From Arenimonas fontis (GTDB lineage: Bacteria > Pseudomonadota > Gammaproteobacteria > Xanthomonadales > Xanthomonadaceae): a stretch of DNA of 64,000 nucleotides. The translations under genes and the position numbers were made by a program. The stretch's first letter is position 1; every line of letters begins with the position of its first letter. Positions 31,078 through 50,933 of this stretch are shown piece after piece. The DNA is taken from the NCBI RefSeq assembly GCF_008386465.1, contig NZ_VUOD01000001.1, positions 124,001 through 188,000 of the forward strand. The letters are read 5' to 3'. The notes beneath the pieces were generated by a model that saw only the letters and a program-made list of their open reading frames with translations, did not search any database and was not told the origin of the DNA.

Positions 31078-31575
31078 ATGTCAACACCCGCCTTCCCGCG
31101 CGACAAGACGCTCGAGGTCGCCCAGGCCTGCGTCTGTCTGCACGTGCAACGGGCGGCACGGGCCTTGGCCCGGCATTTCGACGAGGTGTTCCGGCCACTG
31201 GGCCTGACCAACGGCCAGTTCTCCCTGCTGATGTCGCTGAACAGGCCCGAGCCGCCCACCATCGGCCAGTTGGCCCCGTTCCTGGCCATGGATCGCACCA
31301 CCCTGACGGCCCTGGTCAAGCCGCTGGAGCGTCGCGGCCTGATCGAAGTCCTGGCCGATGCCGGCGACCGCCGCAAACGCCGCCTGCGCCTGAGCGGCGA
31401 GGGCCATGCCCTGCTCAGCCGCGCCTACCCGCTCTGGTGCGAGGCCCACGCCGCCCTGGACAGGGCCCTCGGCGACCCCGCCACCCTGCGCTCGCTGCTC
31501 ATGCGCATCGCGCCCATGCCCCTCGCCGACCGACCGCCGCCGGCCGGGCCGGCAGCAAAGGATCAGGCCACGTAG
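31078..31575 (+). CDS. MarR-family transcriptional regulator
   Basis: A 165-aa winged-helix regulator: N-terminal dimerisation helix with LEVAQACVCLHVQRAARALARHF, recognition part FLAMDRTTLTALVKPLERRGL, and wing EVLADAGDRRKRRLRLSGEG (the D-x-R-x-x-R-L pattern of MarR wings). Two Cys (C19, C21 in QACVCLHV) could sense oxidants or electrophiles; that is inference. It is divergent from the DUF1428-VOC-hydrolase genes with a palindromic site between. Its last 13 bases overlap the convergent aldehyde dehydrogenase gene. Confidence 0.92.
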   Translation: MSTPAFPRDKTLEVAQACVCLHVQRAARALARHFDEVFRPLGLTNGQFSLLMSLNRPEPPTIGQLAPFLAMDRTTLTALVKPLERRGLIEVLADAGDRRKRRLRLSGEGHALLSRAYPLWCEAHAALDRALGDPATLRSLLMRIAPMPLADRPPPAGPAAKDQAT

Positions 31576-32921
31576 AGCGTCTTGATGTTGGTGAACTCGT
31601 GGATACCGTGGCCGGCGAGTTCGCGGCCGAAGCCCGAGTTCCGGGTGCCGCCGAACGGCAGGCGGACGTCGCTGCGCACCTGCGCGTTGACGAAACAGGC
31701 GCCGGCCGCGAAGCGCCGGGCAAACGCCTCGCCACGGGCCGGGTCGGCGGTCCAGACGCTGGCGCCGAGGCCGAAGCTGGTGGCGTTGGCGACCTCCATG
31801 GCCTCGTCTTCGTCGCGCACCCGGATCAGGCTTGCCACCGGGCCGAATAGTTCTTCTTCCCAGGCCGGCATGCCCGGAGCCACACCCGCCAACACCGTCG
31901 CCGGGTAGACGGTGTCCTTTTCGCCGGGCTTGCCGCCCAGCAGCAGGCGAGCGCCCCTAGCCAGGCTTTCGCTCACCTGCCGATGCAGGCCATCGCGCAG
32001 GTCGGCCCGAGCCATCGGCGCCAGATTGCTGCCGCGGGCTTCCGGGTCGCCCGGCAGCAGTTTGCCGGCCTCGGCCAGGAACCGCTCGGTGAAGCGCTCG
32101 ACGATGCCCGCCACCAGGATGAAGCGCTTGGCGGCGATGCAGGTCTGGCCGGCGTTGCCGTAACGCGAAGCCACCGCCGCCTTCACCGTCTCGTCCAGGT
32201 CGGCGTCCTCGAGCACGACGAAAGGATCCGAGCCGCCCAGCTCGAGCACGCATTTTTTCAGATGCCGGCCCGCGGTCGCCGCCACCGAACGTCCCGCCCG
32301 CTCGCTGCCGGTCAGGGTGACCGCCTTGATCCGCGGGTCGCCGATCACCGCCGCGGCTTGTTCGTTGTCCATGTGCAACACGCCGAAAACGCCATCCGGC
32401 AGGTCGGCTTCGCGCAGTACCGCGGCGATGGCGTCAGCGCAGCGCGGCACGTTGGTGGCGTGTTTCAGGACGGCGACGTTGCCAGCCATCAAGGTCGGGG
32501 CCAGGAAGCGGAACACCTGCCAGATCGGGAAGTTCCAGGGCATGATCGCCAACACGCAGCCGATCGGCTCGTAGGCGACGTAGCTGCGCCGTGCCTCGGT
32601 GGCGATGTCCTCTTCCCGCAGGTAGCGGGCGGCATTGTCCGCGTAGTAGTCGCAGGCCGCGGCGCACTTCTCCACCTCGGCCAGCGCTTCCTTGTGCAGT
32701 TTGCCCATCTCGGCCGTGACCACGTGCGCCAGCTCGGACTTGCGCTGGCGCAGCCCGGCCGCAACCTTGCGAAGACATGCGCCCCTGGCCTCCAGGCTCA
32801 GGCCCGACCAGACGGGAAAGGCGCGCTCGGCAGCCGCCAGCCTTTCCTCGATCGCTGCCGGGGACATCATCGAGTAGCGATACACCTCTCCGGTCCAGGG
32901 GTTCCGGTTTTCGACGGTCAT
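31563..32921 (-). CDS. sad: Sad-type NAD+-dependent succinate-semialdehyde dehydrogenase
   Basis: A 452-aa aldehyde dehydrogenase closest in memory to E. coli Sad (YneI): AIMPWNFPIWQVFRFLAPTLMAGN, KHATNVPRCADAI, the catalytic Glu in CVLELGGSDPF, catalytic Cys in GQTCIAAKRF, and LRDGLHRQVSESLARGARLLLGG. It should oxidise succinate semialdehyde, the product of GABA transamination, to succinate as the final step of putrescine breakdown. It begins 3 bases after the potI stop, so it closes the puuD-puuA-spuC-potFGHI transcription unit. Other short-chain aldehydes are possible substrates. Confidence 0.88.
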   Translation of the reverse strand: MTVENRNPWTGEVYRYSMMSPAAIEERLAAAERAFPVWSGLSLEARGACLRKVAAGLRQRKSELAHVVTAEMGKLHKEALAEVEKCAAACDYYADNAARYLREEDIATEARRSYVAYEPIGCVLAIMPWNFPIWQVFRFLAPTLMAGNVAVLKHATNVPRCADAIAAVLREADLPDGVFGVLHMDNEQAAAVIGDPRIKAVTLTGSERAGRSVAATAGRHLKKCVLELGGSDPFVVLEDADLDETVKAAVASRYGNAGQTCIAAKRFILVAGIVERFTERFLAEAGKLLPGDPEARGSNLAPMARADLRDGLHRQVSESLARGARLLLGGKPGEKDTVYPATVLAGVAPGMPAWEEELFGPVASLIRVRDEDEAMEVANATSFGLGASVWTADPARGEAFARRFAAGACFVNAQVRSDVRLPFGGTRNSGFGRELAGHGIHEFTNIKTLYVA

Positions 32922-32924
32922 GCC

Positions 32925-33767
32925 TCAACCCTCCTGCAGCGCCAGCTGCATGTCGCGCTGGCGGCGTTTCTCCTCCCGGCTCATCAGCCACCAGCCGATC
33001 AGGGCCGCCAGCATCACCACCAGGATCATCAGGGTCGCCAGGGCGTTGATCTTGGGGCTGACACCCAGGCGCACCGAACTGAACACCTTCATCGGCAATG
33101 TGGTCGAGGCGGGACCGGAAGCAAAACTGGCGATCACCAGGTCGTCAAGGCTGAGGGTGAAGGCCAGCAGCCATCCCGCCACCAGGGCCGGAGCGATGAT
33201 CGGCAAGGTGATGACGAAGAACACCTTGAGCCGGTTCGCGCCAAGATCCATGGCCGCTTCCTCCAGCGAGCGGTCCAGCTCGCCGAGGCGGGAGCTGATC
33301 ACCACCGTCACGTAGGCCATGGTGAAGGTGACGTGGGCGATCCAGATGGTCAGCATCCCGCGCTGCTCGCCGATGCCGATCACCGGCCCCATGGACACGA
33401 ACAGCAGCAGGATGGACAAGCCGGTGATCACCTCCGGCATCACCAGCGGCGCGGTGATCAGGCCGCCGAACAGGGTCTTGCCAGGGAAGTTCCGCATCCT
33501 GGTCATGGCCATGGCCGCCAGCGTGGCCAACACCACCGCGGCGCAGGCGGTCCAGAACGCCACCTGGACACTGACCCACGCCGCCGAGACCAACTGCTTG
33601 TCCTGGAACAACTCGTAGTACCACTTCACGGAAAAGCCCGACCAGACCGTGACCAGGCGCGACTCGTTGAACGAGTAGATCATCAGGCTGAGGATGGGGG
33701 CGTACAGGAAAACGAAGCCCGCGGCCAGCAGCAGTTTGGTCAGGCGTGATGTGCGCGCGCCGCTCAT
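32925..33767 (-). CDS. potI: Polyamine ABC transporter permease PotI
   Basis: A 280-aa inner-membrane permease with six predicted helices. The EAA loop that contacts the ATPase is visible as LEEAAMDLGANRLKVFFVITLPIIAPA. The N-terminus (TSRLTKLLLAAGFVFLYAPI) matches the PotC/PotI half. It partners PotH to form the channel. Its start overlaps the potH stop as ATGA. A longer frame fused to potH sequence is an artefact of reading out of frame. Confidence 0.94.
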   Translation of the reverse strand: MSGARTSRLTKLLLAAGFVFLYAPILSLMIYSFNESRLVTVWSGFSVKWYYELFQDKQLVSAAWVSVQVAFWTACAAVVLATLAAMAMTRMRNFPGKTLFGGLITAPLVMPEVITGLSILLLFVSMGPVIGIGEQRGMLTIWIAHVTFTMAYVTVVISSRLGELDRSLEEAAMDLGANRLKVFFVITLPIIAPALVAGWLLAFTLSLDDLVIASFASGPASTTLPMKVFSSVRLGVSPKINALATLMILVVMLAALIGWWLMSREEKRRQRDMQLALQEG

Positions 33768-34678
33768 GTCAGCCTCGACTCCAGTTCCTTGCTCTGGTAG
33801 CGGTGGAAGATCATGATCGGCACCAGCAGCAGCACCAGCATCACCGTCGCCACCGCCGACGCCACCGGCCAGTCGCGGTTGTTGAAGAACTCCTGCCACA
33901 GCACCCGGCCGATCATCAGCGTGTCCGGTCCGCCGAGCAGTTCGGGGATGACGAACTCGCCCACCACCGGGATCAGCACCAGCATCGAACCGGCGATGAT
34001 GCCGGCCTTGGAAAGCGGCAGGGTGATGGTCAGGAAGGCCTTCCACGGCGGTGCGCCCAGGTCGCTGGCCGCCTCGATCAGCCGATGATCGTGCTTGACC
34101 AGGTTGGCATACAGGGGCAACACCATGAACGGCAGGTAGGCATAGACGATGCCGATGTAGACTGCCACCGGGGTATGCAGGATCGGCAGTGGCTGCTCGA
34201 TCAGGCCCAAGCCCATCAGCGCGTTGTTGATCAAACCATTGTTCTTGAGGATGCCGATCCAGGCGTAGATGCGGATCAGGAACGAGGTCCAGGACGGCAG
34301 GATCACCAGCATCAGGGCGACGTTGCGGCTGGCCGGATCCATCCTGGCGATGCCGTAGGCCAGCGGGTAGCCAACCAGCAGGCACAACACCGTCGAGATC
34401 ACCGCTATCTTGAGCGAGCTCAGATAGGCGTTCAGGTACAGGCTGTCGCGCACCAGGTACAGGTAGTTGCCCAGGTTCAGGCGCAGCTCCAGCAGGTCGC
34501 CCTCCCAGGCCAGCAGCGGCGTGTACGGCGGCTGGGCGATGGCGGCGCTGGCGAAGCTGATCTTCAGGGCGATCAGGAACGGAATGGCGAAGAACAACAG
34601 CATCCACAGGTAGGGCACCGCGATCACCAGCCAGCGCGGTCCAGGCAGACGCTTGCGGATCGAGCGAAGCAGCCTCAT
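33764..34678 (-). CDS. potH: Polyamine ABC transporter permease PotH
   Basis: A 304-aa permease with six hydrophobic segments, an N-terminal RWLVIAVPYLWMLLFFAIPFLIALK and the EAA motif LIEAASDLGAPPWKAFLTITLPLSKAG. It pairs with PotI. Start and stop overlap potG and potI by four bases each, typical of a coupled transporter operon. It resembles the PotB/PotH half of spermidine/putrescine importers. Confidence 0.94.
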   Translation of the reverse strand: MRLLRSIRKRLPGPRWLVIAVPYLWMLLFFAIPFLIALKISFASAAIAQPPYTPLLAWEGDLLELRLNLGNYLYLVRDSLYLNAYLSSLKIAVISTVLCLLVGYPLAYGIARMDPASRNVALMLVILPSWTSFLIRIYAWIGILKNNGLINNALMGLGLIEQPLPILHTPVAVYIGIVYAYLPFMVLPLYANLVKHDHRLIEAASDLGAPPWKAFLTITLPLSKAGIIAGSMLVLIPVVGEFVIPELLGGPDTLMIGRVLWQEFFNNRDWPVASAVATVMLVLLLVPIMIFHRYQSKELESRLT

Positions 34679-35817
34679 GAGGTCAGCACCACGCCTGCCT
34701 CGTCGTCCCAGCTCAGCCAGACCTGGTCGTTCCAGGTGAACTGCTCGCTGGCCCAGCGCCGGCTGTTGATCATGTTAGCCATCAGGCGAATGCCGCTCGG
34801 CAGGCGGACATGGAAGACCGAATGACTGCCGAAATAGGCGATCTCCTCGATCGAACCGCGGGCCTTGTTGTGCGGTTGCGCAGGTTCCTCCTTCGAGACG
34901 TGGATCTTTTCCGGACGCAGCGCCAGCGCCACTTCCTGGCCCTCGAAGCCGGTGACGCCGTGGCCGATGTAGGCCAGGTGCTCCAGCGCCGGCACCCGAA
35001 TGGTGATGAAGTCCTTCTCGTCGTCCTCGATCCGGCCTTCCAGCAGGTTCACCGAGCCGATGAACTCGGCGGTGAAACGGCAGTTGGGTTGCTCGTAAAT
35101 CTCGTCCGGCGTGCCGACCTGGCGGATCCAGCCGGCATCCATGATGGCGATCCGGTGCGCCATGGTCATGGCCTCTTCCTGGTCGTGGGTGACCATCACG
35201 CAGGTCACGCCCAGGCGCTCGATGATGTTGACCAACTCGAGCTGCATCTGCGAGCGCAGCTTCTTGTCCAGGGCACCCATGGGTTCGTCAAGCAACAACA
35301 GCTTCGGCCCCTTGGCCAAGGAGCGGGCAAGGGCCACGCGCTGCTGCTGACCGCCGCTGAGCTGATGCGGCTTGCGCCGGGCGTACTTGCCCATCTGCAC
35401 CAGGGCGAGCATCTCCTCGACTTTCCTGGCCACGTCGGCCTTGGCCATGCCGTCCTGCTTCAGACCGAAGGCGATGTTCTGCTCCACGGTCATGTGCGGG
35501 AACAGGGCATAGGACTGGAACATCATGTTGATCGGCCGCTGGTAGGGCGGCAGACCATCCATTTCCTGGCCATCCAGGACGATCCGCCCCCGGGTCGGCT
35601 TCTCGAAACCGGCCAGACAGCGCAACAGGGTGGACTTGCCGCAGCCGGAGGCGCCCAGCAATGCGAATATCTCGCCCTGCCGAATCTTCAGGCTGACGTC
35701 GTCCACGGCCACGAAGCCGTCGAATTCCTTGCGTACCGCCTCGATGCGCAGGTAATCCTCCGCTCCGAGCCGTTCGTTCTTCGATGCGCCGGCGGCGCCG
35801 TTACCGTTCGATGCCAT
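34675..35817 (-). CDS. potG: Polyamine ABC transporter ATP-binding protein PotG
   Basis: A 380-aa ATPase with Walker A (LLGASGCGKSTLLRCLAGFE), Q-loop MMFQSYALFPHM, signature LSGGQQQRVALARSLAKGPKLLLLDEPMGALD, H-loop VMVTHDQEEAM, and a C-terminal TOBE-like regulatory domain from about residue 290. It energises PotHI-mediated uptake. The ATG at 35817 is chosen because MASNGNG fits the family N-terminus; an in-frame extension upstream is Pro/Arg-rich and unlikely. It follows potF by 55 bases. Confidence 0.95.
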   Translation of the reverse strand: MASNGNGAAGASKNERLGAEDYLRIEAVRKEFDGFVAVDDVSLKIRQGEIFALLGASGCGKSTLLRCLAGFEKPTRGRIVLDGQEMDGLPPYQRPINMMFQSYALFPHMTVEQNIAFGLKQDGMAKADVARKVEEMLALVQMGKYARRKPHQLSGGQQQRVALARSLAKGPKLLLLDEPMGALDKKLRSQMQLELVNIIERLGVTCVMVTHDQEEAMTMAHRIAIMDAGWIRQVGTPDEIYEQPNCRFTAEFIGSVNLLEGRIEDDEKDFITIRVPALEHLAYIGHGVTGFEGQEVALALRPEKIHVSKEEPAQPHNKARGSIEEIAYFGSHSVFHVRLPSGIRLMANMINSRRWASEQFTWNDQVWLSWDDEAGVVLTS

Positions 35818-35872
35818 CTGCTGTCCTGGACGAGGCGGGGCGGGCCGCAGCCCGCCCGGCGCCATGGGTCGG

Positions 35873-37021
35873 TCACTTTCCGGTCTTGATCGCCGTCCAG
35901 TGCCGGTTGAACAGCCGATCGACCTCGGGCGGCAGCACCGCCAGGGTGAACAGCTTGGCCTGCGTCTCCGGATCCGGATAGATGCCCGGGTCGTTCAGCA
36001 CCTCCTCGTCCACCAGCGGCAGCGCCGCGCTGTTGGCGCTGGCGTACATCACGTAGTTCTGGATCCCCGCCATCACGTCCGGGCGCATCAGGTAGTCGAG
36101 GAACAGATAGGCGTTGTCGACGTTCCTGGCGTCCTTGGGGATCGCCAGCATGTCGAACCACATCGGCGCGCCCTCCTTGGGGATGGAGTAGGCCACCTCG
36201 ACCGCCGGCTTGTCCGGGTTGGCCTCAGCCGCCTCGGCGGCGCGGGACTGCGCCTGGATGATGTCGCCGGACCAGCCCACCGCCACGCAGATGTCGCCGT
36301 TGGCCAGGTCGTTGATGAACTGTGAACTGTGGAAATAGGTGATGTGCGGGCGCAGCTCCATGAGCCTGTCGGCGGCCTTCTGTATCACCGCCTCGTCGAA
36401 GCTGTTGGGCTCCTCGCCCAGGTACTGCAGCACCGGCGGGATGATCTCCGACGGCGTGTCGAGGAAGGCAACGCCGCAGGCCTTGAGCTTGGCCAGATTG
36501 GCCGGCTCGAACACCAGCGCCCAGCTGTCAACCGGGGCGTCCTCTCCCAGGATCTCGCGCACCTTCTGCACGTTGTAGCCGATGCCGGTGGTGCCCCAGA
36601 GGTAGGGAATGGAATGGGCGTTGCCGGGGTCGTTGCGGGCCAGCTGGGCAAGCATGGCCGGGTCGAGATTGCCGTAGTTGCTCAGGCGTGACTTGTCCAG
36701 CTCCATGAAGACCCCGGCCTGCACCTGGCGGGCCAGGAAGGTCAGCGACGGCACGACTATGTCGTAGCCGGTGTTGCCGGCCATCAGCTTCGCCTCCAGC
36801 ACTTCGTTGGAGTCGAACACGTCGTAGGTGACCTTGATGCCGGTTTCCTTCTCGAAATTGGCGATGGTGTCCTCGCCGATGTAGTCGGACCAGTTGTAGA
36901 CGTTGAGCACCCTGGACGGTGCGGCCTGGGCACCGGCATCGGCGGCCTGGTCGGCGGGTTCTTCCCGGGCGCATCCGGCGGCGGCCAGGGCAAGCAGCAA
37001 AGCGGACATCCTGAGTTTCAT
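35873..37021 (-). CDS. potF: Polyamine-binding lipoprotein PotF/SpuE-like
   Basis: Substrate receptor of the importer, 382 aa. The signal peptide ends in a lipobox (ALAAAGC, Cys17), so it is anchored to the membrane. The mature protein has the PotF fold, with binding-site residues W44-S45-D46, W250, D253 and D290 visible by comparison with E. coli PotF. W288 stands where PotF and SpuD have Phe and where PotD and SpuE have Trp, a difference linked to spermidine preference. It heads potFGHI, 96 bases after spuC, with a small hairpin in the gap. Confidence 0.93.
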   Translation of the reverse strand: MKLRMSALLLALAAAGCAREEPADQAADAGAQAAPSRVLNVYNWSDYIGEDTIANFEKETGIKVTYDVFDSNEVLEAKLMAGNTGYDIVVPSLTFLARQVQAGVFMELDKSRLSNYGNLDPAMLAQLARNDPGNAHSIPYLWGTTGIGYNVQKVREILGEDAPVDSWALVFEPANLAKLKACGVAFLDTPSEIIPPVLQYLGEEPNSFDEAVIQKAADRLMELRPHITYFHSSQFINDLANGDICVAVGWSGDIIQAQSRAAEAAEANPDKPAVEVAYSIPKEGAPMWFDMLAIPKDARNVDNAYLFLDYLMRPDVMAGIQNYVMYASANSAALPLVDEEVLNDPGIYPDPETQAKLFTLAVLPPEVDRLFNRHWTAIKTGK

Positions 37022-37092
37022 CGGTGTTCCCCCCAAGCGATTGACGTTGAGACGGCTTGCTTCCCGAACTGCATAGTACATACAGGCGCCCA

Positions 37093-37107
37093 CCCCGGCA
37101 GCCGGGG
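37093..37107 (-). repeat. Short hairpin between spuC and potF
   Basis: CCCCGG and CCGGGG (6 bp, 3-base loop) lie just downstream of the spuC stop with no T run. It may partly terminate or stabilise transcripts between the catabolic and transport parts of the unit. The rest of the 96-base gap shows no confident promoter. Confidence 0.4.
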
Positions 37108-37117: not shown

Positions 37118-38491
37118 TCAACCCACGGCCATGCCCAGCTCCCTCGCCGTCATGTCCAGGGACTTCCAGGCCTTTTCGGCCAGCTCGTCCACCTGCTCCC
37201 GTTCGAGCACCAGCGGCGGCGAAAGCAGCATGGTGTCGTTGGTGGCACGCAGGATCAGGCCGTTGCGCAGGGCGATGTCCCGGCACAGCTGGCCCACCCT
37301 GCCCCGGTCCGGGAAAAACTCCCTTTTCGGCTTGGCCGGCACCAGCTCCAGGGCACCGACCATGCCGGCGATGCGGGCCTCGCCAACAAGCGGGTGTTCG
37401 CCCAGGGCGCGCCAGCGTTCGGCCAGGTAGGGGGCGATCTCCTCGCCGGCGCGGTCGACGATCCGCTCCTGCTCCAGGATACGGATGTTCTCCAGCGCCA
37501 CCGCCGCGCAGACCGGATGCCCCGAATAGGTATAGCCGTGGGCCAACTCGCCGCCCTTGGTGGCCAGCACCTCGGCGACCCGGTCGTTGAACATCACCGC
37601 GCCCAGCGGGATGTAGCCGGAGGTGATGCCCTTGGCCAGGGTCATCACGTCGGGCTGGAAACCGTAGTACTCACTGGCGAACCAGCGGCCGGTGCGGCCG
37701 AAGCCGCAGATCACTTCGTCGGCGACCAGCAGGACGTCGTAACGCCGGCAGATCCGCTCGACCTCCTGCCAGTAGTTGCGCGGCGGAATGTACACGCCGA
37801 TCGCGCCCATGATCGGTTCACCGATGAAGGCGGCCACCCTGTCGGGACCCAGCTCGAGAATCTTGTCCTCCAGGCGCTTGGCGCAGACCCGGCCGTACTC
37901 CTCCTCGGACAGGTCGCCGCCGTCGCCGAACCAGTACGGCGGGTCGATGTGCACGATGCCCGGTATGGGCAGCCCGCCCTGCTTGTGCATGCCCTTCATG
38001 CCGCCCAGGCTGGCGCCGGCGACGGTGGAACCGTGATAGCCGTTGTGCCGGCCGATGAAGATGCTCTTTTCCGGTTTGTCCTGCACCGCCCAGAAGTGCC
38101 GGACCAGACGCAGGATCGTGTCGTTGGCCTCGGAGCCGGAGTTGGTGAAGAAGGCGTGGTCGAGGTCTCCCGGACACAGTTCCGCCAACTTGGTCGCCAG
38201 GTGTACCGTCGGCTCAGTGGTGCAGTGGAAAAAGGTGTTGTAGTAGGCAAGCCGGTCCATCTGCCGCCTTGCCGCCTCGCCCAGCTCCCGGCGGCCGTAG
38301 CCGATGTTCACGCACCACAGGCCGGCAAAGGCATCCAGCAGCTTGTTGCCTTCGGCGTCCCAGACGTAACAGCCCTCGCCGCGCACCAGGATGCGGGTGC
38401 CGCGCCTGGCCAGGGCTGCATTGTCGTTGAACGGATGCAGGTGGTGGGCGGCATCCAGCTGCTGCAGGGTACGGGTGTCTATCGAATCCAT
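37118..38491 (-). CDS. spuC: Putrescine-pyruvate aminotransferase (SpuC-like)
   Basis: A class III PLP-dependent aminotransferase of 457 aa. PLP contacts are FFTNSGSEANDT, GRHNGYHGST, the Asp in LLVADEVICGFGRTGRW and the lysine in LAKGITSGY. The close match to SpuC (LHPFNDNAAL, GLWCVNIGYGR, YYNTFFHCTTEP) suggests it moves the amino group of putrescine to pyruvate, giving 4-aminobutanal and L-alanine. It may instead act on GABA or glutamyl-polyamines. It starts 14 bases after a puuA-type gene. A 903-aa frame extending upstream is an artefact. Confidence 0.88.
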   Translation of the reverse strand: MDSIDTRTLQQLDAAHHLHPFNDNAALARRGTRILVRGEGCYVWDAEGNKLLDAFAGLWCVNIGYGRRELGEAARRQMDRLAYYNTFFHCTTEPTVHLATKLAELCPGDLDHAFFTNSGSEANDTILRLVRHFWAVQDKPEKSIFIGRHNGYHGSTVAGASLGGMKGMHKQGGLPIPGIVHIDPPYWFGDGGDLSEEEYGRVCAKRLEDKILELGPDRVAAFIGEPIMGAIGVYIPPRNYWQEVERICRRYDVLLVADEVICGFGRTGRWFASEYYGFQPDVMTLAKGITSGYIPLGAVMFNDRVAEVLATKGGELAHGYTYSGHPVCAAVALENIRILEQERIVDRAGEEIAPYLAERWRALGEHPLVGEARIAGMVGALELVPAKPKREFFPDRGRVGQLCRDIALRNGLILRATNDTMLLSPPLVLEREQVDELAEKAWKSLDMTARELGMAVG

Positions 38492-38505: not shown

Positions 38506-39891
38506 TCAGACGTTGAGCAGCAGGAACTCGCGCTCCCAGCTGCTGATCACGCGCAGGTAAGTCTCGTGCTCCTTGGTCTTGACCGCCGTGTAGGCGCGCA
38601 CGAAGCGCTCGCCGAGCAGGTCGCGCAGGGGCTTGCAGGCGCGCAGCTCCTCCAGGGCCTGTTCGAGCGAGCGCGGCAGGCCATAGCCCTTGTCGTGGGC
38701 GCTGCCGACCAGGGGCTCGGTCGGCTCGATACGCTCCCTGATGCCCAGGTAGCCGCAGGCAAGGGTTGCCGCCAGGGCCAGGTAGGGGTTGACGTCCGAG
38801 CCGGCGAATCGGCTTTCCACCCGGGTGTTCTCGGCGTCGTCCAGCGGCACCCGCAAGCCACAGGTACGATTGTCGAACCCCCAGTGCACGTTCTTCGGCG
38901 AGACCTCCCCGAAGGCCAGGCGCCGGTAGGAGTTCACGTTCGGCCCGAAAAAGGCCATGGCCGCCGGCACGTATTTCTGCAGGCCGCCGATGTAGTGCAG
39001 GAAGATTTCGCTGTAGCGGCGGTTCTTGCCGCCGGCGAAGACGTTGCGGCCGCTGCCGGCGTCCACCAGGCTCTGGTGGATGTGCATCGAGCTGCCCGGC
39101 TCGTTCTCCATCGGTTTGGCCAGAAAGGTGGCGTAGATGCCGTGCCGCATCGCCGCCTCGCGCATGGTCCGCTTGAACAGGAACACCTGGTCGGCGCGCG
39201 ACAGCGGGTCGGCATGGATGAAATTGACCTCCAGCTGGGCGGCACCGGACTCGTGAACCAGGGTGTCCACGTCCAGCTCCATGGCCTCGCAGTAGTCGTA
39301 CATCAGGTCCAGGATCGGGTCGAATTCGTTGACCGCGTCTATGGAATAGGACTGACGGGCGGTTTCCGGCCTGCCGTTGCGCCCGGCTGGCGGCTGCAGG
39401 GGAAAATCCGGGTCGGTGTTGCGCTGGACGAGGAAGAACTCCAGCTCGGGCGCCATCACCGGCCGCAGGCCGAGGTCCTCGTACAGGCGCAGCACCCGGC
39501 GCAACACATTGCGCGGGGCCAGCTCGTGCGGCCGGCCATCCTTGGTGTAGCAGTCGTGGATGATCTGGGCGGTGGGGTCGGTGGCCCAGGGCACCATCCG
39601 CACCGTCTCCGGATCCGGGCGCAGGGCCATGTCGGAATCGGAGGGGCTGACCAGGTCGTCGTATTCGTCCGGATAGTCGCCGGTGACGGTGGTGGCGAAG
39701 ATGCCTTCCGGAAGGCGGGTGCCGAAGTCGTGGCTGAACTTGGCGGCCGGGATGATCTTGCCGCGGGCGTTGCCGGTGAAGTCCGGCACCAGGCACTCGA
39801 CCTCGGTGATGCGGCGCTCCTTCAACCATCGGAGCAGTGTGCTTTCCTTCTGTTCGGCGCTTGCCGGCGCCGCTCGTTTCCTGCTGGCCAT
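38506..39891 (-). CDS. puuA: Glutamate-polyamine ligase, copy 1 (glutamine synthetase family)
   Basis: A 461-aa glutamine-synthetase-like enzyme. It has the Glu-metal motif MAPELEFFLVQ, GSSMHIHQSL, NSYRRL, the ATP-site segment GFDNRTCGLRVPL, and SRFAGSDVNPYLALAATLA. The family ligates glutamate to an amine, here probably putrescine or spermidine (gamma-glutamylputrescine synthetase). It sits 2 bases downstream of puuD and 14 bases upstream of spuC. The ATG at 39891 (MASRKRA) is used. A second homologue at 40886-42253 suggests divided substrate ranges. Confidence 0.9.
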   Translation of the reverse strand: MASRKRAAPASAEQKESTLLRWLKERRITEVECLVPDFTGNARGKIIPAAKFSHDFGTRLPEGIFATTVTGDYPDEYDDLVSPSDSDMALRPDPETVRMVPWATDPTAQIIHDCYTKDGRPHELAPRNVLRRVLRLYEDLGLRPVMAPELEFFLVQRNTDPDFPLQPPAGRNGRPETARQSYSIDAVNEFDPILDLMYDYCEAMELDVDTLVHESGAAQLEVNFIHADPLSRADQVFLFKRTMREAAMRHGIYATFLAKPMENEPGSSMHIHQSLVDAGSGRNVFAGGKNRRYSEIFLHYIGGLQKYVPAAMAFFGPNVNSYRRLAFGEVSPKNVHWGFDNRTCGLRVPLDDAENTRVESRFAGSDVNPYLALAATLACGYLGIRERIEPTEPLVGSAHDKGYGLPRSLEQALEELRACKPLRDLLGERFVRAYTAVKTKEHETYLRVISSWEREFLLLNV

Positions 39892-40652: not shown

Positions 40653-40688
40653 AAAGGCCTCGCGGGGAGTCGCCCGACCTTACTCCCG

Positions 40689-40708
40689 GCGTTTGATTTT
40701 ATCAACGC
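40689..40708. promoter_or_regulatory. Near-palindromic operator candidate before puuD
   Basis: GCGTTTGATTTTATCAACGC: arms GCGTT(t)GAT and ATCAACGC match with one extra base and a TTT centre. On the minus strand it contains TTGATA, spaced 17 bases from TAAGGT, a plausible puuD promoter. A polyamine repressor bound here would block that promoter. The remainder of this 233-base divergent region holds the puuA promoter described separately. Confidence 0.45.
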
Positions 40709-40830
40709 ACGTTTGACGTCCCTGAACACCCCGCCGCCCCTCCCTGCCCCTTCGGGCCTGAAAAATGGCCGATTTCGCCAGTTCCGGGCCGCCTGCCCTG
40801 CCCCCGCGCCCGACCCGATGATGAGTATTT

Positions 40831-40858: not shown

Positions 40859-40885
40859 CCGGCCAGCCCCGAGGGACCCGCCACC

Positions 40886-42253: not shown

Positions 42254-42256
42254 GGC

Positions 42257-43546
42257 ATGGCGCTGCGCAGGCCGGACGAACACGTCGATTCCTGGTATGC
42301 CCGCAGCGCCGTCCCGGCGCCGGAGCGGCCGCGGCTGGAAGGCCGGGTCACGGCCGACGTCGCCATCCTTGGCGGTGGCCTGACCGGCCTGAGCGCCGCC
42401 CTGGAGCTGGCCGAGGCCGGCCTCAGGGTGGTGCTGCTGGAAGCGCGGCGGATCGGCTGGGGCGCCAGCGGCCGCAACGGCGGCCAGGTGATCTTCGGCT
42501 ACAGCTGCGACCAGGCGAAGATCGAGGCCCTGGTGGGGCGCGAGGACGCCAGGCGCATGTTCGACTGGTCCATCGAGGCCGTCGACCTGGTGCGCCAGCG
42601 CATCGCCCGCCATGGCATCGCCGCCGACTGGCGTGACGGCCACGCCCACGTCGCCATCAAGCCGCGGCACATCACCGAGCTCAAGGCCTGGCAGCGCGAC
42701 CTGGAGGAGAACTACGGCTACCCGCTGCAGTGGTGGGACCGCGAGCAGCTGCGCGAGGTGCTGGACAGCCCGCGCTACCTGGGCGGCCTCTACGACCCGC
42801 GCTCGGGCCACCTGCATCCGCTCAACTACACCCTCGGCATTGCCGCCGCCGCCGAGCGTGCCGGCGCCCTGCTCTTCGAGCGGACCGAGGTGACGAAGCT
42901 GGAACGCGGGGCCAAGCCGGTGCTGCGCACCGCCCACGGCGAGGTGCAGGCCGATTTCGTGGTGCTGGCCGGCAATGCCATCGTCCATGGCATCGCGCCG
43001 GAGCTGGACGACAAGATCATGCCGGTGGGCACCTATGTCGGGGCGACGCCGCCGCTGGGCGAGGAACTGGCGCGCCAGCTCATCCGCAACGACATGGCGG
43101 TGGCCGACATCAACTGGGCGCTGGACTATTTCCGCTTCAGCGCCGACCACCGGCTGCTGTTCGGCGGCCGCGCCAGCTATTCCACGCTGCCGCCGCCGAA
43201 CCTGCCGGGGGTGATGATGCGGCGGATGGCGCGGGTGTTCCCGCAGCTCAAGGGGGTGCGTTTCGAGCACATCTGGGGTGGCCTGATCGACATCAGCCGG
43301 AACCGGGCGCCGCATTGGGGGCGGCTCGGGAACAACATCTATTTCGCCCAGGGGTTCAGCGGGCACGGCGTCGCCACCACCGGCCTGGCGGGGCGGGTCA
43401 TCGCCGAGGCCATCCGCGGGCAGGCCGGCCGCCTGGACGCCTTCGCGCGCATCCGCCACCACGACTTCCCCGGCGGCCGCACCTTCCGCACGCCCCTGCT
43501 CGTCGCTGCCATGGCCTGGTACAAGCTGCGCGACGCGCTCTGGTGA
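42257..43546 (+). CDS. puuB: Gamma-glutamylputrescine oxidoreductase PuuB
   Basis: A 429-aa FAD-dependent amine oxidase of the DAO family. The FAD-binding Rossmann motif lies at about 36-60 (VAILGGGLTGLSAALELAEA), followed by the GWGASGRNGGQVIFGY segment, and the C-terminal FAD contact is AQGFSGHGVATTGLAGRV. It oxidises the free amine of gamma-glutamylputrescine to an aldehyde with release of ammonia. It follows puuA directly and converges on puuC, with a perfect hairpin over its stop codon. Confidence 0.92.
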   Translation: MALRRPDEHVDSWYARSAVPAPERPRLEGRVTADVAILGGGLTGLSAALELAEAGLRVVLLEARRIGWGASGRNGGQVIFGYSCDQAKIEALVGREDARRMFDWSIEAVDLVRQRIARHGIAADWRDGHAHVAIKPRHITELKAWQRDLEENYGYPLQWWDREQLREVLDSPRYLGGLYDPRSGHLHPLNYTLGIAAAAERAGALLFERTEVTKLERGAKPVLRTAHGEVQADFVVLAGNAIVHGIAPELDDKIMPVGTYVGATPPLGEELARQLIRNDMAVADINWALDYFRFSADHRLLFGGRASYSTLPPPNLPGVMMRRMARVFPQLKGVRFEHIWGGLIDISRNRAPHWGRLGNNIYFAQGFSGHGVATTGLAGRVIAEAIRGQAGRLDAFARIRHHDFPGGRTFRTPLLVAAMAWYKLRDALW

Positions 43547-43597: not shown

Positions 43598-45097
43598 TCA
43601 GCCCAGGTTGATCCAGGTGGCCTTGATTTCGGTGTATTTGTCGAAGGCGTGCAGCGACTTGTCGCGGCCGTTGCCGCTTTGCTTGTAGCCGCCGAAGGGC
43701 GCGGTCATGTCGCCGCCGTCCCAGTAGTTGACCCAGACGCTGCCGGCCCGCAGCTTCCTCGCCACCCGGTGCGCCCGGGAAATGTCCCGCGTGAACAGGC
43801 CGGCGGCCAGGCCGTAGTCGGTGTCGTTGGCGATGCGCAGCGCCTCCTCCTCGGTATCGAAGGCGATCACGCTCAGCACCGGTCCGAAGATCTCCTCGCG
43901 GGCGATCGTGCTGCCGTGCGCCACCTCGTCGAAGATGGTCGGCGCCACGTAGCAGCCGCCGGCCACCGTCTGCAGCCGCTCGCCGCCGATGACCAGGCGC
44001 GCGCCCTCGGCCCGGCCCTTGCCGATGTAGTCGAGCACGCGCGCGGTCTGCGCCTCGTCGACCAGGGCGCCCATCGGCGCCTCCGGGTCGAGCGGATGCC
44101 GCGGCTGCATGCGCTCGCCGAACCTGGCCACCAGCGCCACGAACTCGTCCTTGATCGAACGCTCGACCAGCAGGCGCGAGGCGGCCGTACAGACCTCGCC
44201 CTGGTTGTAGAAGATGCCGCTGGCCGCCGCCTGGGCGGCGCGCTCCAGGTCGGGCGCGTCGGCGAAGACGATGTTCGGGCTCTTGCCGCCGCACTCCAGG
44301 TAGGTGCGCTTCATGTTGGAGCGGCCGGCGCAGGCCAGCAGGTGCTTGCCGACCGCGGTGGAACCGGTGAAGACCAGGCCATCGACGTCCATGTGCAGGG
44401 CCAGCGGCTCGCCGGCCGTCTTGCCAAAGCCCGGCAGCACGTTCAGCACGCCTTCGGGAATGCCAGCCTCGATGGCCAGCGCGGCCAGGCGCAGCGCCGT
44501 CAGCGGCGACTTCTCCGAAGGCTTCAGCACCACCGAATTGCCCATGGCCAGGGCCGGGGCGAGTTTCCACACCGCCATCAGCAGCGGAAAGTTCCAGGGC
44601 ACGATGGCGGCAACCACGCCCAGAGGCTCGCGCGTCACCAGGCCCAGTTCGTCCTGGCCGGTCGGCGCGACCTCGCCGTAAACCTTGTCGATCGCCTCCC
44701 CGGTCCAGGCCAGGCAGCGCACGCTGGCGGCCATGTCCACCTCGAGCGCATCGCCGATCGGCTTGCCCATGTCCAGGGTTTCGAGCAGGGCCAGTTCCTC
44801 GGCGTGGTCCTGCACCAGCCGGGCCAGTTTCACCAGTACCCGCTTGCGGTGTGCCGGCCGGGTGCCCGACCAGCGGCCGTCCTCGAACGCGCGCCGGGCA
44901 GCCGCGACGGCGCGGTCCACGTCCTCGGTGCCGCACTCGGCCACCCGGGTCAGCAGGCGGCCGTCAATCGGGCTGCGGCATTCGAAACTGGCGCCGGAAG
45001 CGGCGTCCACGTAGCGGCCGTCGATGAAGGCCTGGTGCGGGAACTGCAGCCGGCTGGCGAGCTGCTCCCAGTCCTGGCGGGTCCTGGTCATGGTCAT
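43598..45097 (-). CDS. puuC: Gamma-glutamyl-gamma-aminobutyraldehyde dehydrogenase PuuC
   Basis: A 499-aa NAD(P)+ aldehyde dehydrogenase: AAIVPWNFPLLMAVWKLAPALA, catalytic Glu in TYLECGGKSPNIV, catalytic Cys in NQGEVCTAASR, and EIFGPVLSVIAF near the C-terminus. It oxidises the aldehyde made by PuuB to gamma-glutamyl-GABA. A broad aldehyde range is usual in PuuC/KauB enzymes. It lies downstream of the puuR-type regulator on the same strand (42-base gap) and is probably cotranscribed with it. Confidence 0.9.
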   Translation of the reverse strand: MTMTRTRQDWEQLASRLQFPHQAFIDGRYVDAASGASFECRSPIDGRLLTRVAECGTEDVDRAVAAARRAFEDGRWSGTRPAHRKRVLVKLARLVQDHAEELALLETLDMGKPIGDALEVDMAASVRCLAWTGEAIDKVYGEVAPTGQDELGLVTREPLGVVAAIVPWNFPLLMAVWKLAPALAMGNSVVLKPSEKSPLTALRLAALAIEAGIPEGVLNVLPGFGKTAGEPLALHMDVDGLVFTGSTAVGKHLLACAGRSNMKRTYLECGGKSPNIVFADAPDLERAAQAAASGIFYNQGEVCTAASRLLVERSIKDEFVALVARFGERMQPRHPLDPEAPMGALVDEAQTARVLDYIGKGRAEGARLVIGGERLQTVAGGCYVAPTIFDEVAHGSTIAREEIFGPVLSVIAFDTEEEALRIANDTDYGLAAGLFTRDISRAHRVARKLRAGSVWVNYWDGGDMTAPFGGYKQSGNGRDKSLHAFDKYTEIKATWINLG

Positions 45098-45705: not shown

Positions 45706-45743
45706 GTTGCCGGATATTTAACACCCGCCCCCAAGGTGGTCAA
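45706..45743 (-). promoter_or_regulatory. puuR promoter with overlapping operator motif
   Basis: On the minus strand TTGACC (45743-45738) and TTAAAT (45721-45716) are 16 bases apart. The plus-strand motif GTTGCCGGATATT (45706-45718) overlaps this -10 and matches 10 of 13 positions with the copy at 45766-45778. Repressor binding would shut off puuR-puuC. Confidence 0.55.
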
Positions 45744-45765
45744 TGAAACCGGACGATGGGCGACC

Positions 45766-45795
45766 GTTGTCAAATATTCTCATCGGTGCTAGCGT
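45766..45795 (+). promoter_or_regulatory. Promoter and operator motif for the BauA-type gene
   Basis: TTGTCA (45767-45772) and TAGCGT (45790-45795) with 17 bases between. The motif GTTGTCAAATATT (45766-45778) covers the -35. It is the second copy of the motif found over the puuR promoter, in the same orientation and 60 bases away. Confidence 0.55.
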
Positions 45796-45820
45796 GCCGC
45801 CGTTCCCCAGGAGACCCGCC

Positions 45821-47167
45821 ATGACCGCCTCCGACCCCGGCTACCCCGCCACCCGGGCGCCCGAGCGTACCGACGCCTACTGGATGCCGTTCACGGCCAA
45901 CCGCCAGTTCAAGAAGGCCCCGCGCCTGCTGGCCAGCGCCGAGGGCATGTACTACCGGGACACCGACGGCCGCGAGGTGCTGGACGGCACCGCCGGCCTG
46001 TGGTGCGTGAACGCCGGCCATGCCCGGCCGCGCATCGTCGAGGCGATCAAGCGCCAGGCCGAGACCCTGGACTACGCGCCCAGTTTCCAGATGGGGCACC
46101 CCCTGCCCTTCCTGCTGGCCGAACGCCTGGCGGACATCGCGCCGGCGCCCCTCAAGCACGTGTTTTTTACCAATTCCGGCTCGGAGTCGGTGGACACCGC
46201 CCTGAAGATCGCCCTTGCCTACCACCGCGCCCGTGGCGAGGGCCAGCGCACCCGGCTGATCGGCCGCGAGAAGGGCTATCACGGCGTCGGCTTCGGCGGC
46301 ATTTCCGTGGGCGGCCTGGCCAACAACCGCAAGTTCTTCGGCGCCCAGCTGCCCGGCGTGGACCATTTGCGCCATACCCTCGACCTGGAACGCAACCGCT
46401 TCAGCCGCGGCCTCCCCAAACACGGCGCAGAGCTGGCCGAGGACCTGGAGCGGCTGGTGCAACTGCACGACGCCAGCACCATCGCCGCGGTCATCGTCGA
46501 GCCGGTGGCCGGCAGCGCGGGCGTGATCCTGCCGCCGGAAGGCTACCTGCAGCGCCTGCGCGAGATCTGCGACCGGCACGGCATCCTGCTGATCTTCGAC
46601 GAAGTGATCACCGGTTTCGGCCGGGTCGGCGAGGCCTTCGCCGCCCAGCGCTTCGGCGTCACCCCGGACATCATCACCACCGCCAAGGGGCTGAGCAACG
46701 GCGCCGCGCCGATGGGCGCGGTACTGGTCTCCGATGCCATCCACGCCGCCTTCATGCAGGGGCCGGAAGAGGTGATCGAGCTGTTCCACGGCTACACCTA
46801 TTCCGGCCATCCCCTGGCCTGCGCGGCCGCCCTCGCCACCCTGGACACCTACCGGGAAGAAGGGCTGTTCAGGAAGGCGATCACCCTGGAACGCTACTGG
46901 GAGGACGCCATCCACTCCCTGCGCGGCCTGCCGCACGTGGCCGACATCCGCAACATCGGCCTGGTCGGCGCCGTCGAACTGGAGTCCCGGCCCGGCGTCC
47001 CGGGCGCCCGCGGCTACGAGGCCTTCGCCCGGGCCTTCCACGAGCACGCCCTGATGGTCCGCTGCACCGGCGACGTGCTGGCGCTGTCGCCGCCCCTGAT
47101 CCTGGACGAGAGCCACATCGACCGGATTTTCGAGCGGCTGGCCGCTACCATACGCGCCACCGCCTGA
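45821..47167 (+). CDS. bauA: Beta-alanine/omega-amino acid-pyruvate aminotransferase (BauA-like)
   Basis: A 448-aa class III aminotransferase with YWMPFTANRQFKK, HVFFTNSGSESVDTALKIA, GREKGYHGVGFGG, LLIFDEVITGFGRVG and the PLP lysine in TTAKGLSNGAAPMG. The segment LHDASTIAAVIVEPVAGSAG is almost identical to Pseudomonas BauA as recalled. It should convert beta-alanine plus pyruvate to malonate semialdehyde plus L-alanine. The ATG at 45821 follows CAGGAG; a longer frame starts inside the promoter. It leads a plus-strand run with ald, an MMSDH gene and an agmatinase gene. Confidence 0.9.
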   Translation: MTASDPGYPATRAPERTDAYWMPFTANRQFKKAPRLLASAEGMYYRDTDGREVLDGTAGLWCVNAGHARPRIVEAIKRQAETLDYAPSFQMGHPLPFLLAERLADIAPAPLKHVFFTNSGSESVDTALKIALAYHRARGEGQRTRLIGREKGYHGVGFGGISVGGLANNRKFFGAQLPGVDHLRHTLDLERNRFSRGLPKHGAELAEDLERLVQLHDASTIAAVIVEPVAGSAGVILPPEGYLQRLREICDRHGILLIFDEVITGFGRVGEAFAAQRFGVTPDIITTAKGLSNGAAPMGAVLVSDAIHAAFMQGPEEVIELFHGYTYSGHPLACAAALATLDTYREEGLFRKAITLERYWEDAIHSLRGLPHVADIRNIGLVGAVELESRPGVPGARGYEAFARAFHEHALMVRCTGDVLALSPPLILDESHIDRIFERLAATIRATA

Positions 47168-48381: not shown

Positions 48382-49884
48382 ATGACCGACATCCGCCGCA
48401 TCCCGCATTTCATCCAGGGCCGTGAACAGGCGGCGGAAGACGGGCGCTGGGGCGAGGTGTTCGATCCCGCCAGCGGCCGGGTGGCCGGCCGCGTGGCCCT
48501 GGCCTCGGCCGACGAGGTCTCGGCGGCGGTGGCTGCCGCCGAGGCGGCCTTTCCGGCTTGGGCCGAAACCACGCCGCTGAGCCGCGCCCGTGTCCTGTTC
48601 CGGTTCAAGGAGCTGCTGGAACGGCACGCCGACGAGATCGCCGCCGCCATCACCGCCGAGCACGGCAAGGTGCTGGCCGATGCCCGCGGCGAGCTGACCC
48701 GCGGCATCGAGGTGGTCGAATTCGCCTGCGGCGCGCCGCACCTGCTCAAGGGCGAGCACTCGATGAACGTCGGCCGCGAGGTCGATTCCTGGACCGAATA
48801 CGCGCCGCTGGGCGTGGTCGCCGGCATCACGCCGTTCAACTTCCCCTGCATGGTGCCGATGTGGATGTTCCCGGTGGCGCTGGCCTGCGGCAACACCTTC
48901 GTGCTCAAGCCCAGCGAACGCGACCCCGGCCCGACCCTGATCCTGGCCCGGCTGCTGAAGGAGGCCGGCCTGCCCGACGGCGTGTTCAACGTGGTGCACG
49001 GCGACAAGGTGGCAGTGGACGCGCTGCTGGACGACCCGCGGGTGCGGGCGGTCAGCTTCGTCGGCTCGACCCCGATCGCCGAATACATCTATGCCCGCGG
49101 CAGTGCCAACGGAAAGCGCGTACAGGCCCTGGGCGGGGCCAAGAACCACATGGTGATCCTGCCGGACGCCGACCTGGACCAGGCTGCCGGCGCGCTGCTG
49201 GGCGCCGGCTACGGTTCCGCCGGCGAGCGCTGCATGGCGATCTCGGTGGCCGTCTGCGTCGGCGACAAGCTGGCCGATGCGATGGTGGCTCGTCTCAAAC
49301 CCATGGTCGAGGGCCTGCGGATCGGCCCCGGCTGCCAGGGCGATCCGGACATGGGCCCGCTGGTCACCGCCGCCCACCGCGACAAGGTGCGCGCCTACGT
49401 GGACAGCGGTGTGGCCGAGGGCGCGCGCCTGGTCGTGGACGGCCGCGGCCTGAAGGTTCCAGGTGCGCCCGACGGCTTTTTCCTCGGCGGCTGCCTGTTC
49501 GACCACGTGCAGCCGCACATGCGCATCTATCGCGAGGAGATCTTCGGGCCGGTGCTGTGCGTGTTGCGCGTCCCCGATTTCGAGACGGCGCTCAAGCTGG
49601 TCAACGAACACGAGTACGGCAACGGCGCCGCGGTGTTCACCCGTGACGGCGATGCCGCCCGCCAGTTCGCCCACCGGGTCCAGGCCGGCATGGTCGGCAT
49701 CAACGTGCCGATCCCGGTACCGATGGCCTTCCACAGTTTCGGCGGCTGGAAGCGCAGCCTGTTCGGCCCGCTGCACATGCACGGCCCGGACGGCGTGCGC
49801 TTCTACACCCGCCTCAAGACGATCACCGCGCGCTGGCCGACCGGCCTGCGCGACCCCGAGTTCGTGATGCCGACGATGAAATAG
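48382..49884 (+). CDS. mmsA: CoA-acylating (methyl)malonate-semialdehyde dehydrogenase (MmsA/BauC-like)
   Basis: A 500-aa aldehyde dehydrogenase of the MMSDH type: [42 protein letters not shown] in place of the usual Glu-containing ELGGK motif, catalytic Cys in [11 protein letters not shown], and [19 protein letters not shown]. The lack of the general-base Glu and the CoA-dependent deacylation are hallmarks of this class. It would convert malonate semialdehyde from the preceding aminotransferase to acetyl-CoA and CO2; methylmalonate semialdehyde is an alternative substrate. It starts 48 bases after ald. Confidence 0.92.
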
Positions 49885-49967
49885 GCGACGGCGCCACGTC
49901 CGGTGACCCTCGTCCCGGCGATGCCGCAAGGCAGGAACGACGAGCGGACCTTGCGAGGACGCCTGCC

Positions 49968-50933
49968 ATGCCCGAACCGAAGTCGCCCGCCATCCCCGCC
50001 ACCATCGACCTGGCCTTCGCCGCCACCCCGCCTTATGGCACGGTGGCCGAGCCCACCTATTCCGGTGCGCTCAGCTTCCTGCGCCGCCCCTACGGCAAGG
50101 ACCTTTCCGTCGCCGACGTCGCCGTGCTGGGCGTGCCCTTCGACCTGGCCACCACCAACCGGCCCGGCGCGCGTCTGGGCCCGCGGGCCATCCGCGCCGC
50201 CTCGGCCTCGCTGGCCTGGTGCCCGCCCTATGCCTGGGATTTCGACCCGCTGCAGCGGCTGCGGGTACTGGACGCCGGCGACGTGTACTTCGACCCGGGC
50301 CGGCCGGCGGAGGCACCGGAGGCCATCCGCGGCGCCTTCGCCGCGGTGGCGGCGCAGGGTGTGATACCGCTGGCCCTGGGTGGCGACCATTTCATCAGCT
50401 TCCCGATCCTGCAGGCGCTGCAGCCGGTCCATGGGCCGCTGGCCCTGGTGCATTTCGACGCCCATAGCGACACCTGGCGCGACGCAGACGGGCGCGTCGA
50501 CCACGGCACCATGTTCTTCCACGCTGCCCGCCTGGGCCTGGTGGATCCTGCCCGCTCGATCCAGCTGGGCATGCGCACGCACAACGCCGAGACGCATGGC
50601 TTCCGGGTCGTGGATGCCCGGGAACTGCACGCCATTGGCGTGGAGGAAGCCGTCGCCGCCATCCGCGCGCGCGTCGGTGGCAGCAAGTGCTACGTCAGCT
50701 TCGACGTGGACTTCCTGGATCCGGCCTACGCGCCCGGCACCGGCACCCCGGTAGTCGGCGGCTTCAGCACGCACGATGCCCTGCGCCTGGTGCGCGGCCT
50801 CGCCGGCCTGGACATCGTCGGCATGGACGTGGTCGAGGTCAGTCCGCCCTATGATCACGCCGAGATCACCGCCCTGGCTGCCGCGAGTGTCGCCCAGGAG
50901 CTGCTGGCGGCGCTGGCGGCCGGCCGCGGCTGA
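49968..50933 (+). CDS. speB: Agmatinase-family ureohydrolase (SpeB-like)
   Basis: A 321-aa manganese enzyme of the arginase family: LGGDHFISFPIL, VHFDAHSDTWRD and FDVDFLDPAYAPGTGTPVVGG supply the two-metal ligands (His, Asp, His, Asp). The PGTGTPxxGG ending is typical of agmatinase and guanidinobutyrase or guanidinopropionase subtypes. Agmatine would give putrescine and urea, feeding the cluster; 3-guanidinopropionate would give beta-alanine, 4-guanidinobutyrate GABA. The sequence alone does not decide. It follows the MMSDH gene by 83 bases and converges on the glutathione transferase gene. Confidence 0.85.
   Translation: MPEPKSPAIPATIDLAFAATPPYGTVAEPTYSGALSFLRRPYGKDLSVADVAVLGVPFDLATTNRPGARLGPRAIRAASASLAWCPPYAWDFDPLQRLRVLDAGDVYFDPGRPAEAPEAIRGAFAAVAAQGVIPLALGGDHFISFPILQALQPVHGPLALVHFDAHSDTWRDADGRVDHGTMFFHAARLGLVDPARSIQLGMRTHNAETHGFRVVDARELHAIGVEEAVAAIRARVGGSKCYVSFDVDFLDPAYAPGTGTPVVGGFSTHDALRLVRGLAGLDIVGMDVVEVSPPYDHAEITALAAASVAQELLAALAAGRG

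Follow-up and report, generated by a model that had tools for sequence, protein, structure and literature searches.

Analysis of a 64-kb window (the whole stretch of DNA studied, with 68.7% G+C) from an Arenimonas genome (Xanthomonadaceae/Lysobacteraceae; 2.63 Mb in 32 contigs, 99.97% completeness) revealed a well-supported polyamine-catabolic cluster at positions 31563-50933. We propose, with a probability of about 0.75, that this block is one polyamine-utilisation regulon made up of two neighbouring modules and repressed by the XRE-cupin protein (PuuR) that it encodes. Two divergent promoter regions set the transcription layout. Region 1 (40653-40885) serves the leftward puuD-to-sad operon and, rightward, ligase 2 and puuB; region 2, between puuR and aptA near 45725-45820, serves puuR and puuC leftward and aptA, the alanine dehydrogenase gene (ald), the (methyl)malonate-semialdehyde dehydrogenase gene (mmsdh) and the agmatinase gene (agm) rightward. 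The puuB and puuC genes are convergent, with a 51-bp gap. The limits of the block given in an earlier sequence-only reading proved correct, and all of the polyamine gene types named there were found with NCBIfam and Pfam models, several of them below the naming model's cut-off. Ligase 2 was 83% identical to the versions of Arenimonas terrae and A. malthae.

In Pseudomonas aeruginosa, XRE-cupin proteins repress neighbouring genes, and palindromic motifs are described for PsdR, PauR and ErfA (PMC7901475). By analogy, PuuR would bind a 16-bp motif in the present block. An XRE-cupin regulon predicts a palindrome before every transcription unit, and three strong putative sites and a weak one at puuR were found:

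40688-40706, minus strand: operator-like site of the puuD-to-sad operon, found by matrix scans and pattern; its core is one of three exact genome matches
40820-40838, plus strand: operator-like site of ligase 2-puuB, found by matrix scans and pattern
45766-45784, minus strand: operator-like site of aptA-ald-mmsdh-agm, found by matrix scans and pattern
45706-45724, plus strand: weak operator-like site at puuR (window-scan score 5.6); visual inspection of relatives showed a comparable stretch

The weak site overlaps the annotated start of puuR, whose true start is probably downstream of the annotated one; the true start of aptA likely lies at 45821, judging from the sequence.

An AT-rich imperfect palindrome recurred in the aligned promoters of relatives. 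A matrix built from 26 sites, 9 of them distinct, in the aptA promoters of relatives scored above 8 in 58 of the 76 ligase-promoter regions, compared with 7% of base-shuffled regions. A second matrix, trained on the ligase promoters of relatives with the window outside the training set but seeded from the aptA matrix, ranked 40820 (27.5), 40688 (24.4) and 45766 (24.3) as the top three positions in the window, the next match scoring 11.5. De novo motif search was performed on 68 of 76 ligase promoters and 23 of 26 aptA promoters after near-duplicate removal; the model from the aptA promoters alone gave ranks 1-2 in the window to the aptA site and a palindrome in the promoter of a MarR-type gene, and ranks 3 and 4 to the two ligase-promoter sites. 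Drafted from sites in the window and in relatives, the 16-bp pattern GWTGADWAWHHYWDAC had three occurrences in the window with one mismatch tolerated (expectation 0.02). Genome-wide there were three exact matches and no more, all in the cluster's two divergent promoter regions, and zero matches of the reversed control pattern; these counts, partly of sites from which the pattern was drafted, are not independent. The explanation that the motif is a mere sigma-70 promoter was dropped because its sequence stays constant while its phase to the promoter shifts; boxes assigned by eye put the -35-like element over the motif's right end at the ligase-2 promoter and over its left end at the aptA promoter.

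We surveyed the motif across 149 genomes of the family, of which 48 carry ligase 2 (match score 641 bits or higher) and six more have ligase-1-like matches only. The pattern matched 103 times, against 17 matches of the reversed control in 15 of the 149 genomes (counted by eye). It was present within 400 bp upstream of ligase 2 in 38 of the 48 carriers, and 39 of the 48 had a further site elsewhere; 12 of the 101 genomes without ligase 2 had any site, one each. Of 58 sites located elsewhere than upstream of ligase 2, we retrieved 20, hand-picked and mostly aptA-site-like in sequence, and 19 of these were at an aptA or aptA/puuR promoter, the lone exception being in a genome without ligase 2 (G098). 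Because several of the 19 were separated from ligase 2 by 20-100 kb or lay on a different contig, sharing of the motif is not a mere effect of adjacency.

Class-wide, a match at 1e-100 was found in 21 of 321 genomes, 19 of them outside the family. The out-of-family sample comprised 20 of 22 matches from 18 genomes, several on short contigs, and both modules were linked in three of its loci (L146, L147 and L150). Matrix scans of four of the 20 retrieved loci provided the most independent test of the motif. In L146, the two best matches of both family-trained matrices fell in the two intergenic regions where sites were expected, and the same held for the aptA-site matrix in L147 and the ligase-promoter matrix in L150; in L149, which shows no aptA module, the best match of both matrices was between puuD and ligase 2. 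Because of the motif evidence at both promoters, joint regulation of the two modules appears to be more than an inference from neighbourhood.

Besides the shared origin of the pattern counts, the control matches and the hand-picked sample, several results weigh against a common operator. When only the ligase promoters were searched de novo, the puuD-side site alone emerged and the aptA site was missed, and the aptA-site matrix placed the MarR-promoter palindrome (31047) second in the window. Ten of the 48 carriers had no exact match upstream of ligase 2 and five had no match anywhere. At least nine of the 27 unretrieved carrier sites differ in sequence (G056, G060, G063, G100, G118 and G139) and may be background. 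Outside the family, the exact pattern was absent from all 20 loci, the ligase matrix gave a further score of 19.3 in L147 at an unrelated position, and the aptA-site matrix ranked an unrelated place first in L150.

The MarR-promoter palindrome, an AT-rich stretch at 31047-31072 (GTTGATATCAAC core), is just upstream of the MarR-type gene at 31078-31575 and is probably the operator of that gene itself. Very similar motif matches were also observed at G098:C2:270275, G071:C138:13286 and G124:C11:143842, all in one genus and with no ligase-2 orthologue; the retrieved site of this group (L141) was near none of the cluster genes.

Proteins were named using NCBIfam models with curated cut-offs, Pfam domains and best solved-structure relatives, and the names of those below cut-off follow the best match and gene context. 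Module 1, of the spu type, encodes uptake, glutamylation and Sad (cut-offs are given in brackets; GS, glutamine synthetase; GABA, gamma-aminobutyrate):

31563-32921, minus strand: Sad-type succinate-semialdehyde dehydrogenase; PRK13968, 502 bits (855), below
32925-33767, minus strand: PotI-type permease; PRK10592, 391 bits (476), below
33764-34678, minus strand: PotH-type permease; PRK10683, 467 bits (489), below
34675-35865, minus strand: PotG-type ATPase; PRK11607, 541 bits (613), below; broader TIGR01187, 417 (356), above
35873-37093, minus strand: PotF-type periplasmic receptor; PRK10682, 527 bits (636), below; best solved relative 1a99 PotF, 471 bits; true start probably downstream of the annotated GTG
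37118-38491, minus strand: SpuC-type class III transaminase; PRK07480, 754 bits (510), above
38506-39891, minus strand: GS-like ligase 1 (SpuB/PauA2 position); GlnA, 255 bits (429); gamma-glutamylputrescine synthetase, 207 (650); none above cut-off
39894-40652, minus strand: PuuD/SpuA-type gamma-glutamyl-GABA hydrolase; PRK11366, 221 bits (266), below; Peptidase_C26, 245 bits
40886-42253, plus strand: GS-like ligase 2 (SpuI/PauA1 position); type III GS, 219 bits (470); gamma-glutamylputrescine synthetase, 195 (650); none above cut-off
42257-43546, plus strand: PuuB-like FAD oxidoreductase of the DAO family; PF01266, 249 bits; best NCBIfam match pipecolate oxidase AmaA, 187 bits (600); no match to any PuuB model in the NCBIfam search

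Module 2 encodes PuuC, the regulator, the beta-alanine branch and the agmatinase:

43598-45097, minus strand: PuuC/KauB-type aldehyde dehydrogenase; PRK09847, 681 bits (850), below; solved relatives 5iuu, 720 bits, and KauB 6b4r, 714 bits
45140-45724, minus strand: XRE-cupin (PuuR/PauR type) regulator; HTH_3 and Cupin_2; no NCBIfam match at 1e-40
45743-47167, plus strand: AptA/BauA-type omega-amino acid (beta-alanine):pyruvate transaminase; NF052567, 742 bits (500), above; best solved relative beta-alanine:pyruvate transaminase 4b98, 478 bits
47218-48333, plus strand: alanine dehydrogenase, starting at 47218; TIGR00518, 529 bits (392), above
48382-49884, plus strand: CoA-acylating (methyl)malonate-semialdehyde dehydrogenase (MMSDH); TIGR01722, 697 bits (449), above
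49968-50933, plus strand: agmatinase-family ureohydrolase; PRK02190, 406 bits (302), and TIGR01230, 220 (174), both above

In the proposed mechanism, PuuR would repress both modules through the common operator-like motif. PotFGHI would import putrescine and probably spermidine, the two GS-like ligases would cap these polyamines with glutamate, the PuuB-like enzyme would oxidise the amine and the PuuC/KauB enzyme of module 2 would then oxidise the aldehyde, and PuuD would set GABA or beta-alanine free. AptA is predicted to convert beta-alanine to malonate semialdehyde, which MMSDH would turn into acetyl-CoA, and the SpuC-type enzyme (or AptA) would convert GABA to succinate semialdehyde for oxidation to succinate by Sad. 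The pyruvate-dependent transaminases would make alanine, from which alanine dehydrogenase would yield pyruvate and ammonia, and the agmatinase would feed agmatine in as putrescine. We infer which compound induces the regulon, which substrate each protein takes and how spermidine would lead to beta-alanine. In this model, polyamine import, glutamylation and the breakdown of beta-alanine would form a compact regulon under one operator, whereas the P. aeruginosa beta-alanine locus has its own BauR. Such a regulon predicts an operator sequence, operator places in dozens of genomes and a transaminase replacing GabT, and would make the weakly annotated genes, namely those of the two GS-like ligases and the PuuB-like oxidase, assignable.

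No GabT/PuuE-type gene was found in the genome with TIGR00700 (E <= 1e-120) or PF00202, the latter search returning five class III transaminases: BioA, HemL, an ArgD-like enzyme, AptA and the SpuC type. The only ArgD-like transaminase found (L118, G000:C32:63590-64798) was unusually divergent, with 126-127 bits to TIGR00707 against a cut-off of 410. Because a GabT/PuuE-type gene is missing from the genome, GABA, if formed, would most likely be converted by the SpuC or AptA type. Across the family, 45 of the 48 ligase-2 carriers were without GabT/PuuE, and TIGR00700 detected GabT at the same threshold in three of the 149 genomes; it counts against a GabT-free route that all three (G056, G084 and G110) carry ligase 2. 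We give only slightly less than an even chance to the broader proposal that cluster-carrying Xanthomonadaceae burn polyamines in a GabT-free, pyruvate-driven manner, with one PuuR-type repressor over both modules even where these are apart, the SpuC and AptA types passing all amino groups to pyruvate and alanine dehydrogenase recycling the product. A tie between GabT absence and the joined cluster outside the family was also considered, with GabT in none of the three joined genomes (G387, G409 and G164) versus 9 of 16 others, and was dropped because there were too few genomes.

The claim of the sequence-only reading that both putrescine routes are present is unproven, as the genome is without GabT/PuuE and the SpuC type may instead act in the glutamylation route, as its GABA:pyruvate transaminase. 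If the routes did run in parallel, SpuC would convert putrescine to 4-aminobutanal and the KauB-like PuuC would oxidise this to GABA, beside glutamylation, with AptA or the ArgD-like enzyme taking GABA. This alternative is possible, although we consider it somewhat more likely to be wrong than right. The operon position of the SpuC-type gene equals that of P. aeruginosa spuC, whose product is described as a putrescine-pyruvate aminotransferase (PMC9397018; PMC10606097), the solved relatives of the enzyme include the putrescine aminotransferase 6gwi and the polyamine:pyruvate transaminase 9j4z, and PuuC is nearest to KauB, which oxidises gamma-aminobutyraldehyde (PMC9397018). However, another class III enzyme must handle GABA where GabT/PuuE is missing, and the SpuC-type gene shares its operon with that of Sad, the next enzyme; in the out-of-family locus L146, Sad directly follows SpuC with no Pot genes between them, although this is not decisive.

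The two ligases are the weakest-named proteins of the block. Alignment showed that both keep the GS catalytic landmarks and are without the FDGSS and LYDL segments of GlnA from the same genome, segments that we take to be the ammonium site and the adenylylation segment. Loss of these segments is expected for glutamyl-amine ligases. By sequence, ligases 1 and 2 are probably gamma-glutamyl-amine ligases, resembling the PuuA/PauA ligases in a GS core with an apparently altered ammonium-site region. The PotF-type receptor carries Trp at the position of F276 in PotF, where a change to Trp raises spermidine affinity about threefold and lowers putrescine affinity about threefold (PMC8666671). At the other positions linked to a preference for spermidine the receptor does not resemble PotD, having Thr at S87 and at A182 and Leu at L348, which tells against a spermidine-type receptor; because of the Trp residue combined with these distal residues, mixed putrescine/spermidine specificity is a fair prediction.

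Another reading is that the cluster mainly serves other amines (e.g. agmatine, cadaverine or other short omega-amino compounds), with polyamines secondary. The ligases score far below the cut-offs of the polyamine models, and each matches a GlnA or type III GS model somewhat better than the polyamine one; equivalog scores below cut-off also leave the names of PuuD, PuuC, Sad, the ligases and PotFGHI dependent on best match and gene context. Members of these GS-like ligase and omega-transaminase families are promiscuous. PauA1-PauA7 of P. aeruginosa each seem to differ in specificity (PMC9397018). The alternative is nevertheless unlikely, since the receptor (471 bits to PotF), PuuD and the spu-type gene order point to putrescine and spermidine.

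Comparison of related loci (the best 80 of 109, of which 49 had full flanks) revealed that ligase 1, the divergent ligase 2 and the PuuB-like gene were kept in 77 of 80. The genes puuR and aptA were within about 10 kb in 24 of the 49 full-flank loci; the modules were not within 10 kb in the other 25, a point against one unit, and these include every full-flank Xanthomonas-titled locus and two Arenimonas-titled ones (L042 and L058). All 16 genes were present in L038, 15 in six loci and 14 in ten, many being cut by the ends of the retrieved stretches. With 24 full-flank relatives and three out-of-family loci also joined, the grouping is not peculiar to the source genome. In 29 loci with the modules near each other, the gap between them measured 26 bp to 5.4 kb, and other genes often intervened. 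The idea that relatives conserve an additional polyamine gene between puuB and puuC was dropped because the gap genes vary; in L034, L035 and L055 (of the 29 measured) they encode, by eye, ArsR/SRPBCC, MFS and ferredoxin-reductase-like proteins. Chance adjacency or genome compaction of independently regulated modules, for which the 25 unjoined loci and the intervening genes speak, is very improbable, given the same operator-like motif before both modules even when these are distant or split between contigs, and at both modules in three loci of other families.

The chemistry is mostly known; what seems new is the joining to a beta-alanine module, the shared operator-like motif and the apparently GabT-free end. 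The left half of the block corresponds to the P. aeruginosa spuABCDEFGH-spuI (pauA1)/PauR system, with PuuD, ligase, SpuC, receptor, ATPase and two permeases in one direction (the Pseudomonas order being background from the literature), a divergent second ligase, one operator-like region between the operons and a regulator of the XRE-cupin repressor family encoded nearby. The view that Pseudomonas has such functions in separate loci thus does not hold for this half, and it stands for the beta-alanine, Sad, PuuB and PuuC parts. The locus is the subject of Lu 2002, as a title cited in PMC9397018, which also tabulates the PA numbers of the spu genes; a single PauR site serves pauA1 and spuABCDEFGH, and putrescine leads to derepression via PauR (PMC7901475). 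Unlike the spu locus, our block has one receptor instead of SpuD and SpuE, includes Sad and the PuuB-like gene, and is adjoined by PuuC/KauB, the regulator and the beta-alanine genes.

The BauA-type transaminase and CoA-acylating MMSDH-type dehydrogenase are shared with P. aeruginosa bauRABCD. BauR is of the LysR type, whereas the adjoining regulator here is XRE-cupin (the genome beyond the locus was not searched for BauR); alanine dehydrogenase and agmatinase are also part of the operon here, and the operator-like motif is common to the polyamine-uptake module. The Escherichia coli puu cluster comprises puuP, puuA, puuD, puuR, puuC, puuB and puuE. Our block resembles it in its predicted glutamylation route and in having PuuA-, PuuB-, PuuC-, PuuD- and PuuR-type genes, and differs in having ATP-binding cassette (ABC) uptake genes, two ligases and a beta-alanine branch, in a genome without a PuuE/GabT type. 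In the accessible account of the P. putida spu1 cluster, gabT paralogues are present and, unlike here, no beta-alanine module is described. Among titles and abstract openings, with subscription papers largely outside this scope, we found no account of a joined regulon in Xanthomonadaceae.

Compared with solved structures, the ureohydrolase scored 308 bits to agmatinase 4dz4 and 221 bits to guanidinobutyrase/guanidinopropionase. A role as a guanidinopropionase supplying AptA with beta-alanine was dropped because solved agmatinases score higher, and a role as the genome's sole biosynthetic source of putrescine was dropped because the genome also encodes SpeA and an agmatine deiminase of the AguA type. 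The agmatinase would add putrescine and set urea free; release of urea is expected because SpeA, RocF and the AguA-type enzyme are encoded in the genome and the urease alpha subunit was not found in the genome search.

The window holds one PotF receptor, and two were found in 15 of the 70 relative loci with a scored PotF position. These tandem PotF-type pairs occurred in L062, L065, L067, L068, L072-L074, L077-L079, L086, L089, L095, L109 and L149; in the last five, one receptor has Phe and the other Trp at the F276 position, reminiscent of the SpuD/SpuE pair. In a Xanthomonas arboricola locus (L088:13-4368), a same-strand HlyD-MFS-OEP efflux set follows PotF in the place of PotG/H/I. A carbon-nitrogen hydrolase follows puuC in the joined out-of-family cluster L147 (4926-5855), and in the window a GstA-type glutathione transferase gene (50983-51597) is convergent with the agmatinase gene.

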